Shown: positions 24,216 to 33,945 of the stretch, in pieces
How positions within the stretch are numbered: position 1 is the first letter of the stretch
Layout: each line of letters starts with the position of its first letter
IMG/VR virus record: IMGVR_UViG_3300028548_000895
Location: 1 to 42,136 of that record
Source of the DNA: a virus
Direction: 5' to 3' (one strand)
Length of the DNA: 42,136 nt
Made by a program: the position numbers and the translations under genes
Notes under the pieces: model-generated
Seen by the model: only the letters and a program-made list of their open reading frames with translations
The model's database searches: none
Told to the model about the DNA's origin: nothing

Positions 24216-25739
24216 ATGTCGTTAGCAGAGGAGTTTGCTGTACGCTATGCTGGACTGCGTCAAGCGTATGGGACTTTCACAGCTAACAATGAAACTAGGG
24301 AAGATGGCAAGGCAAGTGGCAAAAACATTACTATATCTAAGGAGTTGTCTGATACAGATCTCCTAAAGTTATGGGACGGTCACTTGTCGGGTCATCAGAG
24401 CGTAGGCATTGTTCCCATAGATGAACACAATAACTGTGTGTGGGGAGCCATTGACGTTGACGAGTATCAAATAGATTTAAAAGATTTAGCGATAAAAATA
24501 GCGAAGCAAAAACTACCATTGGTTCTTTGCCGCAGTAAAAGCGGCGGAGCACACATCTACCTGTTCTTGACGGAACCTGTGGCCGCATCAGTATTACAAA
24601 GAAAATTAAGACAAGTTGCGGCGGCAATCGGTTACGGACAGGTGGAGATATTTCCGAAACAAACCAAGCTTTTATTAGATAGAGGAGACAGGGGAAGCAC
24701 TTTAAACATGCCGTATTTTGGTGGAGAAAATTCTACCCGATACGCATACAGTACAAAAGGTAAGGCATTAACACCTGAAGAATTTTTAAAGTACGCAAAA
24801 GAAATAGAGTTAACGCCCAGTGAATTAGGGAAGTTAGAAGCCAGTCCGTTAAACGAAGGCTTAGAGTGGTTAGACCAAGCACCTCCTTGCATACAACACT
24901 TAGTTGTACAGGGGTTTCCTAAAGGATCAAGAAACTCAGGCTTGTTTAGTGTGGGTGTATTTCTACGAAAGAAATTTGCAGACGATTGGGAAAAGCGGTT
25001 AGAAGATGTAAACATGAAGTTTATGCAACCACCGTTGGGAGCGCAAGAAGTTTTGACTGTTGCTAAACAGTTGCAGAGGAAGGACTACTTCTATAAGTGT
25101 AATGATCAGCCCATCTCTAGTCACTGTAACAGTCCGTTGTGTAGGACTCGTAAGTTTGGCATAGGGGCTAATGGAGGAACGCCATTATTCAGTAACCTCA
25201 CTAAGCAAGACAGTGACCCCCCTATATGGTTCCTGGATGTAGAGGGCGGTCGATTAGAGTTAGAGACTGATGATCTGTTAAATCAGAATAGGTTTCAGCG
25301 AAAGTGTATGGATGCTTTAAATAAGATTCCCCCAAAAGTGAAGGAGAACGTTTGGAATCAAATCATACAACAACTATTAGATGCGATAACGATAGTAGAG
25401 GTTCCTAAAGAAAGTTCTACGGAAGGACACTTCATGGAGTTGTTAGAAGCCTTCTGTACCGAGAGACCTGCGAGAGAGCGAGACGAGTTACTTCTACATA
25501 AACCGTGGACAGATCGAGGGAGGACTTATTTCAGGCTGTTAGATTTAATGGATTACCTACACCGGAATAACTTTAAAGAATACCAACGGAACAGGTTAAC
25601 CTCCAAGCTAAAACAACTAGACGGAGAGCCTTATTTCTTTAACATTAAAGGTAAAGGTGTCAACGTTTGGTTTATAGAAGAGTTTAAAGCACAAATCGAG
25701 TCCCATAACTTACCCGAATTTAATGATAATTTATTATGA
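24216..25739 (+). CDS. archaeo-eukaryotic-type primase (PrimPol, TOTE-like)
   Basis: The 507-residue protein would make primers for replication. The N-terminal catalytic part shows WGAIDVDEY (metal-binding D-x-D), LVLCRSKSGGAHIYLFL (the sGG-x-H nucleotide-binding motif) and YGQVEIFPKQ with a later DRGDRGSTLNMPYFGG, all in the order of AEP primases of the TOTE type. A Cys cluster (YKCNDQPISSHCNSPLC) at about residues 294-310 suggests a zinc site. The C-terminal 150 residues are a charged helical domain, perhaps a winged helix (FRLLDLMDYLHRNNF). There is no helicase domain, so the helicase is separate. It overlaps the AlkB-like gene by 4 bases. Confidence 0.82.
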   Translation: MSLAEEFAVRYAGLRQAYGTFTANNETREDGKASGKNITISKELSDTDLLKLWDGHLSGHQSVGIVPIDEHNNCVWGAIDVDEYQIDLKDLAIKIAKQKLPLVLCRSKSGGAHIYLFLTEPVAASVLQRKLRQVAAAIGYGQVEIFPKQTKLLLDRGDRGSTLNMPYFGGENSTRYAYSTKGKALTPEEFLKYAKEIELTPSELGKLEASPLNEGLEWLDQAPPCIQHLVVQGFPKGSRNSGLFSVGVFLRKKFADDWEKRLEDVNMKFMQPPLGAQEVLTVAKQLQRKDYFYKCNDQPISSHCNSPLCRTRKFGIGANGGTPLFSNLTKQDSDPPIWFLDVEGGRLELETDDLLNQNRFQRKCMDALNKIPPKVKENVWNQIIQQLLDAITIVEVPKESSTEGHFMELLEAFCTERPARERDELLLHKPWTDRGRTYFRLLDLMDYLHRNNFKEYQRNRLTSKLKQLDGEPYFFNIKGKGVNVWFIEEFKAQIESHNLPEFNDNLL

Positions 25740-26323
25740 AAACTTTCGCTAAAAATGTATTTAAAGGAGAGGACCCTCACATTATTGGGTGGGATCGACC
25801 TACTGTACGCGAGTTTTGTAAAAAACGAGTACAAGGTAGGCCGACAAAAGGATACGGTATTGCGGAGTTTAATTACGCAGGAAAGTTATACAATCCTGAG
25901 CCGTGGACACCCTCAGTAGAGTACATTAAAAATAAGGCAGAGGAGTGGGCTTCAAAACTACTGGATCGCCCTATCGAGTTTACTTTTTGCTTGTGTGGCT
26001 TATATGGAACAGGGGACGTGGCTATCCCTCACCACTCAGACACAGTACCCACCTTAGACGATATTGTTTTAGGCATTTCGTTTGGGGGAACTAGGTTATT
26101 AGAGTGGAATGAGTATGGCAGGGAGATTAAAGAAGAAAGTAACACCAGTGAGACACTAGATTTCATAACCAAGTGGACCCCTGTTACTCGGAAGTATCTA
26201 TTAGAAGATGGTGACGTCTATATGTTCGATGGTCGTTCTCAGATGACAAGCACTCACTCGATTCCTTCGATAGAGTTTGGAGCAAAAAGACGCGTCAGCC
26301 TAACTTTCCGGACTGGGCTATGA
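25736..26323 (+). CDS. AlkB-like 2-oxoglutarate/Fe(II) dioxygenase
   Basis: The 195-residue enzyme of the AlkB family reverses N-alkyl damage in DNA or RNA by oxidative demethylation. Iron ligands are H100 and D102 (PHHSDTVP) and H174 (STHSIPS); the 2-oxoglutarate-binding arginine is in RRVSLTFR (R186, R192), close to the RxNLTFR motif of E. coli AlkB. It is embedded between primase and UvrD-like helicase with 4-base overlaps on both sides, so it is made with the replication machinery. The substrate could be damaged phage DNA or a deliberately modified base. Confidence 0.85.
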   Translation: MKTFAKNVFKGEDPHIIGWDRPTVREFCKKRVQGRPTKGYGIAEFNYAGKLYNPEPWTPSVEYIKNKAEEWASKLLDRPIEFTFCLCGLYGTGDVAIPHHSDTVPTLDDIVLGISFGGTRLLEWNEYGREIKEESNTSETLDFITKWTPVTRKYLLEDGDVYMFDGRSQMTSTHSIPSIEFGAKRRVSLTFRTGL

Positions 26324-27889: not shown

Positions 27890-28390
27890 ATGAATATATT
27901 TTATTTCAGCGAAGACCCTGTAGAAGCCGCTAAAGCGCAACCCGATAAGATGTTGGTCAAAATGCCTTTAGAAACGGCACAGATGTTGTGTACCGCTCAC
28001 CGCTTACTTGATGGAGATGAATATGCAGACGTTGCTGGTTTATATAAGAAAGCCTATATGAATCATCCATGTACTCTCTGGGCTAGAGAATGCAGTGGCA
28101 ACTACGCTTGGCTTTATCGACATTTCTTAGCATTAGGTGATGAATACACTTACCGCTATAAACGAATTCATGCCAGTATTGGGAAATTAACTGAAGCCTT
28201 ATACGACATGCCTAAGAACATTCCAATAGGCTATAGAACAGAAGTGGCACAAGCAATGCCGGAAGAGTACAGAAACGAGGACTCTATTCTCGCTTATCGT
28301 AATTATGTTATTAATGAAAAAGGTTACGCTAAATGGGAAAAAGGTCGAACTAAACCAACTTGGTGGGAGATAGGCAGATGTCATCTATAA
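27890..28390 (+). CDS. pyrimidine-dimer-glycosylase-like protein (Pyr_excise family)
   Basis: The 166-residue protein matches the pattern of the phage/bacterial Pyr_excise family: KMPLETAQMLCTAHRLL near the N-terminus, then NHPCTLWARECSGNYAWL and LGDEYTYRYKRIHAS. Members are annotated as pyrimidine dimer DNA glycosylases by distant similarity to T4 endonuclease V. Activity in phage versions is, to my knowledge, not well tested. It leads an operon of base-modification and nucleotide genes, so it might also act on modified bases. It overlaps the methyltransferase by 13 bases. Confidence 0.65.
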   Translation: MNIFYFSEDPVEAAKAQPDKMLVKMPLETAQMLCTAHRLLDGDEYADVAGLYKKAYMNHPCTLWARECSGNYAWLYRHFLALGDEYTYRYKRIHASIGKLTEALYDMPKNIPIGYRTEVAQAMPEEYRNEDSILAYRNYVINEKGYAKWEKGRTKPTWWEIGRCHL

Positions 28391-29298
28391 GAAAAAAGTT
28401 AACAGTTAACGAAAACGACAGCAAAAATACTCGAATGGATCTTGCTTCGGCAGGAGTTTTAGCAAACTGGAGACCTGACGAACTCGCCCATATGAGCCGA
28501 TTCGATAAAATCTCCTCTTTATGCATCAGTGAGGCTAAAAACTTAGACCGACCCTTAGACACTTTTGAAATGGGTTGCGGAGAGTGTTGGGCACTTAGAA
28601 ATTTATACAAGGCTTATGTGGTCAAGAAGACTGATATTATTCGCTCGTATTATGGAACAGATATAGATCCTGCGTGTGAAGCAGAGAACCCTTACTGGTC
28701 TAACGGTGGCGAGCCTTTAGTGAACTCTACTTGGTTTAAAAACTTTAATGGCACACTCAAAATAGTCGATGTAACTGTTCCTCAGTTTGATGAACACGGG
28801 AAAAAGCTTAATATCTTTCATGAGCTAGAGGATGAGAGTATAGACTTCTTTTGGTCCACCGAAGTTATTGAACACATGAATAGAGAGTTTGTTGGTCCGT
28901 GGTTAGACGATGCGGCTAGAGCAATGAGACCTAATGCATTAGCGTATATCTCTACTCCTAATCATGACGGTTCTAACGACAAACTACCTGAAGACCATAT
29001 TTACGAGTGGGGCTTCCAAGAACTTAAAGAAGAGTTAGAAAGAAACTTCATTATAGAAGATGTTACAGGAACTTTTATACAGCTACCTAATCTTCGTAAG
29101 GCTATGAAAGAACAAGTAGAGCCTTCTGTTGATGGAATACCTCTACACAGTAGTGTGAGAAAATACCCCCGAGCATGGTCGCCCGAACAGTTAGAGATGC
29201 TTGAAAGTAGGTTTGGTCGACAGTTCTTACGTGTAGCCGCCGCCGCCCCGTATCCAGAATACGCCAACAACTGTGCATGGGTATTAAGGAAAAAATAA
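28378..29298 (+). CDS. SAM-dependent methyltransferase
   Basis: The 306-residue protein starts at ATG 28378 (an upstream TTG at 28360 is less likely). Rossmann-type motifs are FEMGCGECWALRNLY (motif I, glycine loop), YYGTDIDPA (acidic end of strand 2) and DFFWSTEVIEHM (motif IV region, as in class I enzymes related to UbiE/Methyltransf_11). It lacks the DPPY or PC motifs of known DNA amino- and C5-methyltransferases, so the substrate is open: a small molecule, nucleotide, protein or hypermodified base. It is coupled to the HMUDK_hel-like gene by TAATG. Confidence 0.75.
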   Translation: MSSIRKKLTVNENDSKNTRMDLASAGVLANWRPDELAHMSRFDKISSLCISEAKNLDRPLDTFEMGCGECWALRNLYKAYVVKKTDIIRSYYGTDIDPACEAENPYWSNGGEPLVNSTWFKNFNGTLKIVDVTVPQFDEHGKKLNIFHELEDESIDFFWSTEVIEHMNREFVGPWLDDAARAMRPNALAYISTPNHDGSNDKLPEDHIYEWGFQELKEELERNFIIEDVTGTFIQLPNLRKAMKEQVEPSVDGIPLHSSVRKYPRAWSPEQLEMLESRFGRQFLRVAAAAPYPEYANNCAWVLRKK

Positions 29299-30221
29299 TG
29301 ACTACGTTTATCCGAGCAGAACTCGATCGATATTGCTACTGGCAGGAAGAGCGAGAAAAGATTCGATTTAAAAAAGAAATCTTAGGAGAGAAAGCCCCGT
29401 GGACGGAGGATCCTATACTACAGAACTTTAAGTTTTGCCAAGTTTATCGGGAAGATGATAGAACGACTCGGTGGTTTGCTAAACATATCAGAACACCCTT
29501 AAAAAACGATCCAGCAGTGCTTATGGCAACGGTTATTTTCCGATGGTTTAATCTAATAGAGACCGGAAGAACGTTGGTGGAACACGACCTCTTATTAAAT
29601 TGGGATAGATTAAAAGCGATTGAAGAGATCACTAAACAACCTAAATGGGTGACTGGGGCTTATATTGTCAAGACACCCAACGGTATGAATAAAGTCACAG
29701 GTGTTGCCGAATGTATTTCTCATATGTGGAAAGATCGAAATCACCTCACCGACACACTAGAAGAAGCTAGAAATAATAAAGAATCCTCATTGGAGAAAAC
29801 ATGGTGTATTCTTAGAGATTACCCCTACATGGGTCCATTCATGGCCTACGAGGTAGTGACTGATTTACGATGGACGTATTTTTTAGAAAACGCAGATGAT
29901 CGATTAACGTGGGGCAATGCTGGACCAGGAGCCATGCGAGGACTCAACCGTTTGACAGGAAGAGACTTATCCTTTTCAAAACGAAGTCACAACTGGAATG
30001 ATGAGATGAATGAACTGTATAGTGCGGTCTCAGGGAGATTGTGGTTTAAGCGTAAAGACCTACCTTATGAAATGCGGGAGATAGAAGGAGGGCTTTGCGA
30101 GTTCGATAAGTACTCTCGAATGGTAAAAGAAGAAGGCAGAACACGGTCTATTTATAAACATAACGATCTTCCTATGATTGAAGATCTAGTAGAAGGAGAA
30201 AGTAAGTATGGGAAAACTTAA
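29298..30221 (+). CDS. HMUDK_hel / alpha-glutamyl-putrescinyl thymine pyrophosphorylase-like protein
   Basis: The 307-residue helical protein begins at ATG 29298, in the stop of the methyltransferase; an earlier in-frame start at 29277 is less likely. The pattern RWFAKHIRTPLKNDPAVL, FRWFNLIETGRTL, PYMGPFMAYEVVTDLRW and LTWGNAGPGAMRGLNRLTG is that of the helical domain found in phage 5-hydroxymethyl-dU DNA kinases and thymine pyrophosphorylases. Those enzymes decorate hydroxymethyluracil in phage DNA. No P-loop is present, so this copy is the transferase-like or helical part without kinase. The thymidylate-synthase-family gene nearby supports a base-modification role. Confidence 0.7.
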   Translation: MTTFIRAELDRYCYWQEEREKIRFKKEILGEKAPWTEDPILQNFKFCQVYREDDRTTRWFAKHIRTPLKNDPAVLMATVIFRWFNLIETGRTLVEHDLLLNWDRLKAIEEITKQPKWVTGAYIVKTPNGMNKVTGVAECISHMWKDRNHLTDTLEEARNNKESSLEKTWCILRDYPYMGPFMAYEVVTDLRWTYFLENADDRLTWGNAGPGAMRGLNRLTGRDLSFSKRSHNWNDEMNELYSAVSGRLWFKRKDLPYEMREIEGGLCEFDKYSRMVKEEGRTRSIYKHNDLPMIEDLVEGESKYGKT

Positions 30222-30429
30222 TGAATATTCAATAGAACTTTTAGAGGAGTGGGGAGACTCTGTAGACATACACTACACACAGTTTCTTGAGGTGGCTTTC
30301 TTTCTAAAAGTCCCTGCAACACACAAAATGGCGGTAGCTTTTGTAAGACGTAAACTTCCAGGACTTGGCGAGAATGAAATAAGCTATCTTATCGGTGCAA
30401 TCATAGACGGATACCACGAAACCTTATGA
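30208..30429 (+). CDS. small hypothetical protein
   Basis: The 73-residue, mostly helical protein (LNEYSIELLEEWGDSV, then HKMAVAFVRRKLPGLGENEI) has a GAAGGAG ribosome site inside the end of the previous gene. It overlaps the hydroxymethylase start by 4 bases. No family is recognised. Tight coupling on both sides suggests a helper of the base-modification or nucleotide genes. Confidence 0.55.
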   Translation: MGKLNEYSIELLEEWGDSVDIHYTQFLEVAFFLKVPATHKMAVAFVRRKLPGLGENEISYLIGAIIDGYHETL

Positions 30430-31499
30430 AAGTAATTAACGCAAGAAATGTAAACGATGCTCTACTTTTAGGAATAGATTTATTTAACGGTGCTGTTAAC
30501 TATAGAGTACAACAGACGCGTAACGGTACGACTTACGAGGCATTAGATCCCGTAACAACTGTTTATAATAATCCGTGTGAGCGCGTATGTTTAATTCCAC
30601 AAAGAGACGCTAACCCTTTCTTTCATCTCATAGAAAGTCTTTGGATGTTAGACGGTCGTAAGGATTTAAAACCTTTAACGTATTTTGTTAAAACCATGGG
30701 AGATTTTTCTGACGATGGTGAAACTTTGTGGGGGGCTTACGGTTGGCGGTGGAAAAGCTATTTCGGCAGGGACCAACTACCTCTCATTATAAATATGCTG
30801 AAAAAAGATCCTAACGATCGTAGAGCTGTTCTACAGATGTGGGATGCTAAATATGATTTAAATAGGTATGGCAAAGACGTTCCCTGTAACACTAATATCT
30901 ATTTTAAGGTGCGCGAGGGCAAACTGAATATGACCGTATGTAATCGGTCTAATGATATGCTGTGGGGAGCCTATGGTGCTAACGTGGTTCATATGTCAGT
31001 ATTGCAAGAATATATGGCATCGGCTATCGGTGTTCGTGTTGGCGTATACCGACAGGTTAGTGATAGTTTTCATGTCTACACGGAGTTTCCTGTTTGGGAT
31101 AAGGTTAAGGATCTAAGCATAGACCCACACACTTTCAGCGAACTAAAGAATCCTTACGACACTTTAGAGGACTACACGCCCACCCCTTTGTTTACACAAC
31201 CTCATATGTTACCGCAAGAGTTACAACAATTCTTTGAGATATTAAAGCAACCTAAGGATTTCAAATGGTTTACAAATGGTGGTGATTGCGGAAGCGGCTG
31301 GACTAACCCTGTGTTTAAAGATATTGCCGTACCGATGATGATAGTTTACGCCTGTTATAAAGCAAATAATTTTCACGATGCATATGAAATGCTTCATTTT
31401 ATTACAGCATTAGATTGGAGAGCGGCTTGTCTCGCTTGGCTTCAGAAGAGAGAACAGTCACATATCACTAAAACTAAAGAAGGAAAAGCGCATGAGTAA
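30426..31499 (+). CDS. thymidylate synthase family protein, probable dUMP hydroxymethylase
   Basis: The 357-residue enzyme would transfer a one-carbon unit from methylene-tetrahydrofolate to a pyrimidine nucleotide. Catalytic C154 lies in DVPCNTN and the NRSNDMLWGAYGANVVHMS stretch is the dUMP/dCMP recognition region. The Asn at 186 corresponds to N177 of E. coli TS (uracil selective); dCMP hydroxymethylases have Asp there. The NRSNDMLWGAYGAN form is closer to phage hydroxymethylases than to classic ThyA, so 5-hydroxymethyl-dUMP is the likely product. The closing part is longer than in ThyA. It follows the HMUDK_hel-like gene, consistent with a modified thymine pathway. Confidence 0.78.
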   Translation: MKVINARNVNDALLLGIDLFNGAVNYRVQQTRNGTTYEALDPVTTVYNNPCERVCLIPQRDANPFFHLIESLWMLDGRKDLKPLTYFVKTMGDFSDDGETLWGAYGWRWKSYFGRDQLPLIINMLKKDPNDRRAVLQMWDAKYDLNRYGKDVPCNTNIYFKVREGKLNMTVCNRSNDMLWGAYGANVVHMSVLQEYMASAIGVRVGVYRQVSDSFHVYTEFPVWDKVKDLSIDPHTFSELKNPYDTLEDYTPTPLFTQPHMLPQELQQFFEILKQPKDFKWFTNGGDCGSGWTNPVFKDIAVPMMIVYACYKANNFHDAYEMLHFITALDWRAACLAWLQKREQSHITKTKEGKAHE

Positions 31500-31821
31500 A
31501 TGGGAAAACATGAAAAAAGCCGCACAAGGTGACTTAGAGGCTCTTAAAAAAGCTGAAACGTCATACGGTGACTCTTGGAAACGTCGCGGAGGTGTGGGTG
31601 CTTTTATGATGTTAGCACGTAAGTTCGACCGAGTTGAGCATCAAGCCCAGAAGTGTGGGTGGGATGTTTTTGAAGCAGGAAAAACTTATGTAGGAGAGGA
31701 AGGTCTACTCGATGATATTAGAGATTTGCGTAGATATTTATTATTAACCGAAGAACATATCACAGCGAACAACTACGTTGTAGAAGAAGCTGATGATACA
31801 CACACTGATGAGGAGAGTTAG
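31492..31821 (+). CDS. conserved phage protein, possibly nucleotide-modification-associated (DUF1599/Nmad1-like)
   Basis: The 109 residues show SYGDSWKRRGGVGAFMMLAR, KFDRVEHQ and LLDDIRDLRRYLLL. The Y-G-x-S-W start, conserved K-F-x-R and D-D-x-x-D-L helix recall all-alpha NTP-pyrophosphohydrolase-like or Nmad1 proteins of phages. It might clear an unwanted nucleotide or assist base modification; this is a weak inference from pattern and position after the hydroxymethylase. It overlaps the upstream gene by 8 bases. Confidence 0.5.
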   Translation: MSKWENMKKAAQGDLEALKKAETSYGDSWKRRGGVGAFMMLARKFDRVEHQAQKCGWDVFEAGKTYVGEEGLLDDIRDLRRYLLLTEEHITANNYVVEEADDTHTDEES

Positions 31822-31822
31822 C

Positions 31823-32080
31823 ATGAAGTGGTTTTCAGATATGATTAAATTTTTTACAACACCTGAAGTAGACGAGGTCGCAAAAGCTAAAGCGATTGCA
31901 AAAGCAATAAAAGAAGGGACAGTTATTTTACAACCGTTACCCAAACGTGTTCGAGCACGAACTGTAAAAGGCACATATATAGGCGATGACAAATCTACAC
32001 CCGATGTCAATGAAGCATGGAAAGGAGGCAAAGCGCCGAAACCTAAGTCTAAAGTTGTAAAGATTAAGAAAAAGAAATGA
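31823..32080 (+). CDS. small basic hypothetical protein
   Basis: The 85-residue protein starts at ATG 31823 with AGGAGAG 6 bases before; an earlier in-frame start lies inside the previous gene. The N-terminus is amphipathic (MKWFSDMIKFFTTPEV), the middle helical (AKAKAIAKAIKEG) and the C-terminus Lys-rich (PKSKVVKIKKKK). It overlaps the DNA polymerase start by 4 bases, so it may be a polymerase-linked accessory protein. No family is recognised. Confidence 0.5.
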   Translation: MKWFSDMIKFFTTPEVDEVAKAKAIAKAIKEGTVILQPLPKRVRARTVKGTYIGDDKSTPDVNEAWKGGKAPKPKSKVVKIKKKK

Positions 32081-33945
32081 TCTTACAAAATTCTTTGTTT
32101 CCGCCTCCGAGCGATTGGACTGTACCTGATTTCTTTCCTCAATTTTCTGAGACAGAAACAGTTGCTATCGATTTAGAAACCTACGATCCCTTACTTTTAA
32201 CCTGTGGTCCAGGATGGGCTACAGGTCGCGGTCATGTAGTAGGTATCGGGGTGGCGACAAAAGATTGGGAAGGTTATTTTCCTATTCGTCACGAAGGTGG
32301 CGGTAATCTAGATGAAGAGATTGTTTTACGATGGCTAACTAATCTACTCAAATCCACAAAGCGAGAAGTAGTGTTTCATAATGCACTCTACGATGTTGGT
32401 TGGTTAAGAAGAGAAGGCGTTATTGTAAAAGGTAAAATACTCGACACTATTATTGCGGCTCCTTTGCTCAATGAGAACAGGTTTTCTTATTCACTGGATA
32501 ATTTAGGTATTGAGTATTGCGATGAGAGGAAGGATGAGTCTCTCTTGAAAAATGCGGCTCTGGCTTTCGGTATTAATCCGAAGTCAGAGATGTATAAACT
32601 ACACGCTAAATATGTTGGACCTTATGGTCAACAGGATGCTTCCCTAACATTAAAGCTGTGGAGTAAACTGAAAATTGAGATTGCTCAGCAAGGTTTAGAA
32701 AAAATATTTGAGATGGAGTCTAAGTTGATTCCGTTATTGCTCGAGATGCGGTGGAGAGGGGTTAGAGTTGATGAGGAAAAAGCTGAAAGAGTTAGCAAAA
32801 AACTCTCTACCGAAGAACAGAAAATACAAATAGAGATCAAGCGGAAGTACGGCAAAGATGTAAACCTGTGGGCTAATGCCTCCTTGGAAAGTATTTTTGA
32901 AAAGAATAGCATATGGTTCCCACGCACAGCCAAAGGTATGGCTAGTTTCCAAAAGGATTGGTTAGAGGGTCACTCACACGAACTCCCCCAGTTAATAGTC
33001 AGGGCACGGAAACTCAATAAAGCTAGAACTACGTTTATTGATAAGATGATCGGGGACCATGCCTTCAACGGAAGGATACACGCAGAAGCGCACCCTATGC
33101 GTAATGACCGTGGCGGCACCGTTACTGGTCGATTTAGTTACAGCAACCCTAATCTACAACAGGTTCCTGCACGAGACCCCGAGATAGGGAGTTTAATTCG
33201 TTCTCTCTTTATTCCTGAAGAAGGTTGCCAGTGGGGAGTATTTGACTACTCGCAACAAGAACCCAGACTAACCGTTCATTATGCTAACCAGATGAATTTA
33301 ACTGGAGCAAAAGATGCGGTGAAACTGTATACGGAGGAGAATGCAGACTTCCACCAGATCGTTGCGGACATGGCAAATATACCACGTAAACAGGCCAAGA
33401 CTATCAATCTCGGTTTAAGCTATGGAATGGGTAAAGAGAAACTTGTTAAAGAATTAGGAATAGATGATACAGAAGCTGAAAAGCTTTTCCAACAGTACCA
33501 TGCTAAAGTTCCGTTTATTCGCGCTCTACAAGATCAATGCGCAAGAGTGGCAATGGAGCGAGGATATATCAAAACATTTGCAGGAAGGCGATGCCGTTTT
33601 GATCTGTGGGAAAGTAGATATGAAAGAAGTCTACCGTTACCTCTGGAAGAGGCGAAAGATAAATATGGGGATGATCTTAAACGGTCATACACTTACAAAG
33701 CTTTAAATCGTTTAATACAAGGATCTGCGGCTGACATGACAAAGTTAGCAATGATAGGTTTGTGGGAGGAAGGAATAGTTCCTCACCTACAAGTCCACGA
33801 TGAAGTTGATATTTCAATAGAGAGCAAAGAACAAGCAGACACAGTAACAAGAGTAATGGTCAACTGTGTGAAACTTGCTGTTCCTTTATTAGTGGATCAA
33901 GAGTTAGGAACGTCATGGGGCGAAACAAAGGAAATAAAATCATGA
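32077..33945 (+). CDS. family A DNA polymerase with 3'-5' exonuclease domain
   Basis: The 622-residue replicative polymerase carries exonuclease residues D32 and E34 (AIDLETY), D106 (HNALYDVG) and D187 (YGQQDAS), all present. Polymerase motif A is FDYSQQEPRL (D390), motif B RKQAKTINLGLSYG (R437, K441) and motif C QVHDEVD (H574, D575, E576). There is no 5'-3' exonuclease domain and no DnaJ-like insertion as in some marine podoviruses. The position matching E. coli F762 is Leu (L445). It is coupled to the upstream gene by ATGA and to the next gene by ATGA. Confidence 0.94.
   Translation: MILQNSLFPPPSDWTVPDFFPQFSETETVAIDLETYDPLLLTCGPGWATGRGHVVGIGVATKDWEGYFPIRHEGGGNLDEEIVLRWLTNLLKSTKREVVFHNALYDVGWLRREGVIVKGKILDTIIAAPLLNENRFSYSLDNLGIEYCDERKDESLLKNAALAFGINPKSEMYKLHAKYVGPYGQQDASLTLKLWSKLKIEIAQQGLEKIFEMESKLIPLLLEMRWRGVRVDEEKAERVSKKLSTEEQKIQIEIKRKYGKDVNLWANASLESIFEKNSIWFPRTAKGMASFQKDWLEGHSHELPQLIVRARKLNKARTTFIDKMIGDHAFNGRIHAEAHPMRNDRGGTVTGRFSYSNPNLQQVPARDPEIGSLIRSLFIPEEGCQWGVFDYSQQEPRLTVHYANQMNLTGAKDAVKLYTEENADFHQIVADMANIPRKQAKTINLGLSYGMGKEKLVKELGIDDTEAEKLFQQYHAKVPFIRALQDQCARVAMERGYIKTFAGRRCRFDLWESRYERSLPLPLEEAKDKYGDDLKRSYTYKALNRLIQGSAADMTKLAMIGLWEEGIVPHLQVHDEVDISIESKEQADTVTRVMVNCVKLAVPLLVDQELGTSWGETKEIKS

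Follow-up and report, generated by a model that had tools for sequence, protein, structure and literature searches.

The plus strand of IMG/VR virus record IMGVR_UViG_3300028548_000895 carries an operon that probably (roughly 0.6 by our estimate) makes a hypermodified thymine without phosphorylation, the HMUDK_hel protein of thymine hypermodification loci being kept and the enzyme that would act on the hydroxymethyl oxygen being swapped. The window, that is, the whole stretch analyzed, is a linear record of 42,136 bases without end repeats and hence probably a fragment. Its operon encodes a class I S-adenosylmethionine (SAM)-dependent methyltransferase (MT), HMUDK_hel, and a thymidylate synthase (TS)-family protein. 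With a confidence just short of even, we further propose that virion DNA carries 5-(methoxymethyl)-2'-deoxyuridine by way of a dedicated DNA O-methyltransferase, and that HMUDK_hel is a general adaptor that reads 5-hydroxymethyluracil (5hmU) and is paired with kinases, glycosyltransferases, or methyltransferases. To our knowledge, this nucleoside has not been described in natural DNA, and no report of it there was found in the literature searched, the main papers of Lee et al. lying outside that search. The contiguity of the three genes within positions 28378 to 31821, claimed in the original prediction, was borne out by family matches and by the recurrence of the MT-HMUDK_hel-TS gene order in about 50 nonredundant contigs, far beyond chance. 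The phages with this kinase-free gene set form a widespread group whose members are uncultivated and for the most part marine. The core genes (with E values of family matches) are as follows.

28378 to 29298, plus strand: class I SAM-dependent MT of 306 amino acids (Methyltransf_23, 1.4e-6), the proposed 5-hydroxymethyluracil-DNA O-methyltransferase.
29298 to 30221, plus strand (longest open reading frame [ORF] from 29277): HMUDK_hel protein, with the older label aGPT-Pplase1 (PF18723, 3.5e-42; phrog_2396, 7e-61).
30426 to 31499, plus strand: TS-family protein, a probable deoxyuridine monophosphate (dUMP) 5-hydroxymethylase (PF00303, 5.5e-22; phrog_5131, 1.3e-114).

Thymine hypermodification of the M6/Mesyanzhinovviridae type (5-NedU) was reportedly described by Lee et al. 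in 2018 and 2022. These phages resemble the window in their TS-type dUMP hydroxymethylase, HMUDK_hel, adjoining family A DNA polymerase (PolA), TS active site, and overall gene order. Directly upstream of HMUDK_hel they encode a small P-loop protein (PF18748), the 5-hydroxymethyl-2'-deoxyuridine (5hmdU) kinase, whereas the window lineage has the MT in the place of the kinase and also lacks the amino-acid:DNA transferase (PF18724). Several GenBank records of M6-type phages (L002/L003/L164) list the kinase gene as "terminase small subunit," a misleading name also borne by PHROG phrog_800.

The original prediction had seen no P-loop kinase in the window, and our searches of its 42,136 bases likewise found none. 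A profile built from five M6-type kinases hit all four M6-type genomes and none of the 43 contigs from the lineage of the window (18 of them 58 kb or longer); PF18748 agreed, with no match in that lineage. This profile misses at least one unlike kinase, Ploopntkinase3 of Lucky3, and we therefore also searched for P-loop motifs in three complete relatives, one that closes at 61,952 bp through a 127-bp repeat identical at both ends (G015) and two whose ends overlap (G004 and G008). UvrD was the only canonical P-loop protein in them. The amino-acid:DNA transferase, found in four of four M6-type genomes, was absent from all 38 MT contigs and all 4 glycosyltransferase contigs searched. Whole-contig searches and closed relatives of ∼62 kb thus argue against a kinase merely lying outside the window, a possibility that the original prediction had raised. 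Since both defining enzymes were sought and found absent, the window pathway is not of the M6 type; it would work as a kind of 5hmU tailoring. The usual pathway could still operate if an unrecognized phage or host kinase phosphorylated 5hmU together with HMUDK_hel, with the MT making a later or separate modification. The domain is indeed named after the kinase and stands beside it in M6-type phages, and distant kinases such as that of Lucky3 do escape the M6 profile. Nevertheless, we consider this quite unlikely, given that UvrD stands alone as a canonical P-loop protein in complete relatives, that the amino-acid:DNA transferase, the user of the phosphorylated base, is likewise absent, and that a class with a TAGT glycosyltransferase also has HMUDK_hel without a kinase.

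Enzymes partnering HMUDK_hel were compared across loci gathered with three HMUDK_hel queries and two MT queries, the partner class being assigned within 5 kb. The 168 nonredundant HMUDK_hel loci comprised 41 with a kinase, 49 with the MT, 40 with a TAGT glycosyltransferase, and 38 with other contents; no locus had two of kinase, MT, and TAGT, and HMUDK_hel was present in all 49 nonredundant MT loci. Exclusion held over whole records, as TAGT (PF20691) was absent from 42 MT contigs (versus five of five controls) and the MT from 35 records of the kinase, glycosyltransferase, or other class. The three classes share a common skeleton, which reads UvrD-(Pyr_excise)-[MT]-HMUDK_hel-TS-109aa-PolA in the MT class, UvrD-(Pyr_excise)-HMUDK_hel-[TAGT]-TS-109aa-PolA in the TAGT class, and [kinase]-HMUDK_hel-TS-109aa-PolA in the kinase class, one member of which (L372) has UvrD as well. 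Judged by gene order, the MT holds the place and apparent role that the kinase or glycosyltransferase has in other lineages. This favors the different, perhaps methylated, chemistry that the original prediction had offered as its second option, with the amendment that another enzyme stands in for the kinase. A quick tree of HMUDK_hel, with some long branches, required the partner state (kinase, MT, or TAGT) to change at least 11 times.

About 40 TAGT-class loci (L396:7727-8509; L374, L389, L399; Brevibacterium phage LuckyBarnes, L166) combine HMUDK_hel, TS, and TAGT without a kinase, and their gene content makes glycosylated 5hmU probable, in the marine members as well as in the Brevibacterium isolate. 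Like the window, LuckyBarnes and the marine TAGT contigs have TS and HMUDK_hel, no kinase, and a preactivated donor, and the skeleton of the marine contigs further agrees with that of the window in UvrD, the 109-aa protein, and PolA; unlike in the window, their tailoring enzyme is a glycosyltransferase, encoded downstream of or beside HMUDK_hel. Some loci of the other class encode a Glycos_transf_1 (group 1) protein where TAGT, the kinase, or the MT would otherwise stand (L376:4764-6008, L297:7756-9090), a further partner type of HMUDK_hel/TS loci. In Acinetobacter phage nACB2 (L165), a Macro-domain protein lies upstream of HMUDK_hel, and TS and then a phosphomevalonate-kinase-like protein (match below the cutoff) lie downstream; the latter may fill the kinase role in place of the usual enzyme.

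The MT itself shows the invariant E64-x-G66-C-G68 of motif I and the acidic D95/D97 of motif II of class I SAM methyltransferases in an alignment of 18 MTs, and its homologues reach an E value of 7e-13. The gene is under strong purifying selection, with a ratio of nonsynonymous to synonymous polymorphism (pN/pS) of 0.05 to 0.13. The structural model (mean predicted local distance difference test [pLDDT] score of 77.6) has a class I SAM methyltransferase fold, for which AtmM, SpnF, TleD, and RebM are the nearest solved folds. The modeled fold is thus nearest to small-molecule (sugar or natural-product) methyltransferases; AtmM and RebM are sugar O-methyltransferases. An ordinary DNA adenine or cytosine methyltransferase (N6A/N4C or C5) was ruled out, as none of the 18 aligned MTs has a DPPY-type motif IV or a PC motif and family scans gave no DNA methyltransferase family above the cutoff. 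Sequence searches of phage isolates for the MT yielded distant phage methyltransferases at best. In most MT loci the MT stop overlaps the HMUDK_hel start (ATGA or TAATG type), as in the window, where TAATG at 29296 to 29300 makes 29298 the likely true start of HMUDK_hel; the two proteins thus appear to be made together.

This arrangement bears on the simplest alternative, namely, that the DNA contains plain 5hmdU and the MT, merely an operon neighbor, methylates another base, RNA, or protein. Such an end point is known, as phages such as SP8 carry plain 5hmdU (PMC7653180), and the MT fold is of a generic small-molecule type. We nonetheless regard it as unlikely: the MT gene adjoins HMUDK_hel, in most cases with a stop/start overlap, and replaces, one for one, either of two enzymes whose expected target is the hydroxymethyl oxygen. 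A further possibility is that the MT moves another SAM-derived group, either carboxymethyl from carboxy-SAM (Cx-SAM) or aminocarboxypropyl, onto this oxygen. It has a precedent in phage CmoX, a methyltransferase fold that uses Cx-SAM on phage DNA (PMC12783734). CmoX phages carry CmoA, however, and none occurs among the Pfam-scanned genes of the window (some small ORFs were left out of the scan, and a host CmoA could serve), which leaves transfer of such a group very unlikely.

HMUDK_hel of the window matched PF18723 with 145 bits, against a cutoff of 25, and is all-helical in its model (pLDDT of 89.7). Of the original "HMUDK_hel/thymine-pyrophosphorylase-like" label, the first half stands; the protein is a helical partner module and does not point to a pyrophosphorylase step. 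No sequence match was found in the PDB. A Foldseek search gave a weak structural match to the 5-phosphomethyl-dU glycinyltransferase 8z2n (E value of 0.9, probability of 0.69, template modeling scores of 0.42 to 0.45), followed by OGG1-type glycosylases. These solved matches all act on particular bases in DNA.

The assignment of the first step rests on the active site of the TS-family protein. Its best PDB match is the cytidine monophosphate (CMP) 5-hydroxymethylase MilA (79 bits), the best thymidylate synthase reaching 57 bits. At the equivalent of Escherichia coli Asn177 it has Asn, which selects uracil, as Asp does cytosine (PMC8670742); Cys146 is kept, His147 is replaced by Asn, Trp83 by Phe/Tyr, and Trp80 is not kept. 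Identical states were found in every TS examined from the MT, glycosyltransferase, and kinase classes and in M6 gp58; DNA of phage M6 contains a 5hmdU-derived base (PMC6449724). These residues make it very probable that the protein is a dUMP hydroxymethylase, and the hydroxymethylase features and uracil-selecting Asn of the original prediction were thus confirmed at the level of sequence, together with an M6-like pocket. Were it instead a divergent thymidylate synthase, as its relatives are annotated, the DNA would lack 5hmU and the operon would serve nucleotide supply only. There is little chance of this, considering the best match to a hydroxymethylase, the missing equivalents of Trp80/Trp83, and active-site states as in gp58. 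An HD-domain 5'-deoxynucleotidase (YfbR-like) adjoins TS in kinase and other loci (L316:7863-8420, cluster 6 loci) and in no MT-class locus.

Taken together, these data suggest the following pathway. The TS-family protein would, by its residues, convert dUMP to 5-hydroxymethyl-dUMP, which cellular kinases would raise to the triphosphate for incorporation by PolA as a partial or full substitute for T. As gene exchange and a fold distantly resembling base-flipping HhH DNA glycosylases and 5-phosphomethyl-dU glycinyltransferase suggest, HMUDK_hel may then recognize or flip out 5hmU in DNA and present the base to its partner enzyme, here the MT, which we infer to methylate the hydroxymethyl oxygen to yield 5-(methoxymethyl)-2'-deoxyuridine. 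In M6-like phages, the kinase makes the same oxygen a leaving group, to be displaced by the amino-acid:DNA transferase; in the sister phages, the TAGT glycosyltransferase would be the partner of HMUDK_hel on this oxygen. Because the donor (SAM or a sugar nucleotide) is already activated and the oxygen is the nucleophile, an MT or a glycosyltransferase can work without a kinase and without a displacement enzyme. Only where the oxygen must leave is a kinase required, so MT phages could do without it. The presence and absence of kinase, amino-acid:DNA transferase, MT, and TAGT fit this division between leaving group and nucleophile. With this end product, T would be shielded from restriction.

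Several points weigh against this pathway. On the HMUDK_hel tree, the MT state accounts for two changes against the rest and its class is nearly one clade, so that its exclusion of other partners does not represent many independent events. Neither an MT-HMUDK_hel nor a kinase-HMUDK_hel fusion, either of which would have proved a partnership directly, occurred among about 400 loci. The likeness of the HMUDK_hel model to base-flipping enzymes is weak, and the modeled MT fold alone fixes neither O- over N- or C-methylation nor a plain methyl as the group moved. Finally, for no member did we find biochemical work or mass spectrometry of nucleosides.

The gene order around the operon is primase, AlkB-like 2-oxoglutarate (2OG)-Fe(II) oxygenase, UvrD helicase, Pyr_excise-like protein, MT, HMUDK_hel, 73-aa ORF, TS, 109-aa protein, 95-aa ORF, and PolA. 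The features accompanying the core genes are as follows.

27890 to 28390, plus strand: Pyr_excise-like protein (phrog_624; PF03013, 9.5e-8; phrog_624, 4.4e-54).
30208 to 30429, plus strand: 73-aa ORF with no family match, confined to part of the lineage and seen in roughly half of the gene orders of the MT class.
31492 to 31821, plus strand: 109-aa conserved, TS-linked protein with no Nmad1 match.
32077 to 33945, plus strand: PolA, a fixed neighbor of the module (53% to phage 023Pt_psg01, 48% to Pelagibacter phage HTVC023P).

The Pyr_excise-like gene is an optional neighbor between UvrD and the MT and occurs in the MT and glycosyltransferase classes. Some kinase loci encode the 109-aa protein, as do MT and glycosyltransferase loci, and its link to TS is suggested by a weakly similar domain (best E value of 1.5e-5) at the C terminus of TS proteins in five other contigs (L282, L271, L274, L340, L273). 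The Nmad1-like label given to it originally was not supported: 22 homologues scanned against Pfam-A gave no Nmad1 match, and there was no NCBIfam and no convincing PHROG match. The family is highly conserved (YGDSWKRRGGVGAFMMLARKFDR) and has no Pfam model. The AlkB-like oxygenase (25736 to 26323; PF13532, 1.3e-14), between primase and UvrD, is conserved across most of the MT lineage and also occurs in some of the TAGT class; it is sometimes relocated (L136, L146). One MT-class operon fragment (L423, NZMJ01000039.1; MT identity of 57%) is binned in a metagenome-assembled genome of Maricaulis sp., which points only weakly to an alphaproteobacterial host and does not suffice for host assignment.

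By sequence, the PolA of the window is nearest to that of HTVC023P-type pelagiphage relatives. Clades V, VIII, and IX of these phages, a related lineage, likewise have TS and aG/PT-PPlase1 near PolA (PMC9599517). The 2022 paper describing them also notes a glycosyltransferase in HTVC023P-type phages, assumes an M6-type function, and mentions neither the absent kinase nor any methyltransferase (PMC9599517). The scheme is reminiscent of the 5-hydroxymethylcytosine O-carbamoyltransferase and the T4 glucosyltransferases, in which a TS-family enzyme also supplies a hydroxymethyl pyrimidine whose hydroxyl is capped directly without a kinase (PMC8670742). In those systems the base is cytosine (Asp177) and the cap carbamoyl or glucosyl, whereas uracil and, as proposed, methyl are used here, and HMUDK_hel is not part of them as described (PMC8670742).

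If correct, this pathway would explain how a thymine hypermodification operon does without a kinase, and it would predict a specific base that can be sought by its mass. A domain named after the 5hmdU kinase would turn out to be a common, exchangeable partner of several tailoring enzymes. Given how many virus contigs carry the gene set, marine phages could commonly contain the base, with consequences for restriction, for bias in sequencing, and for the chemistry of phage DNA.

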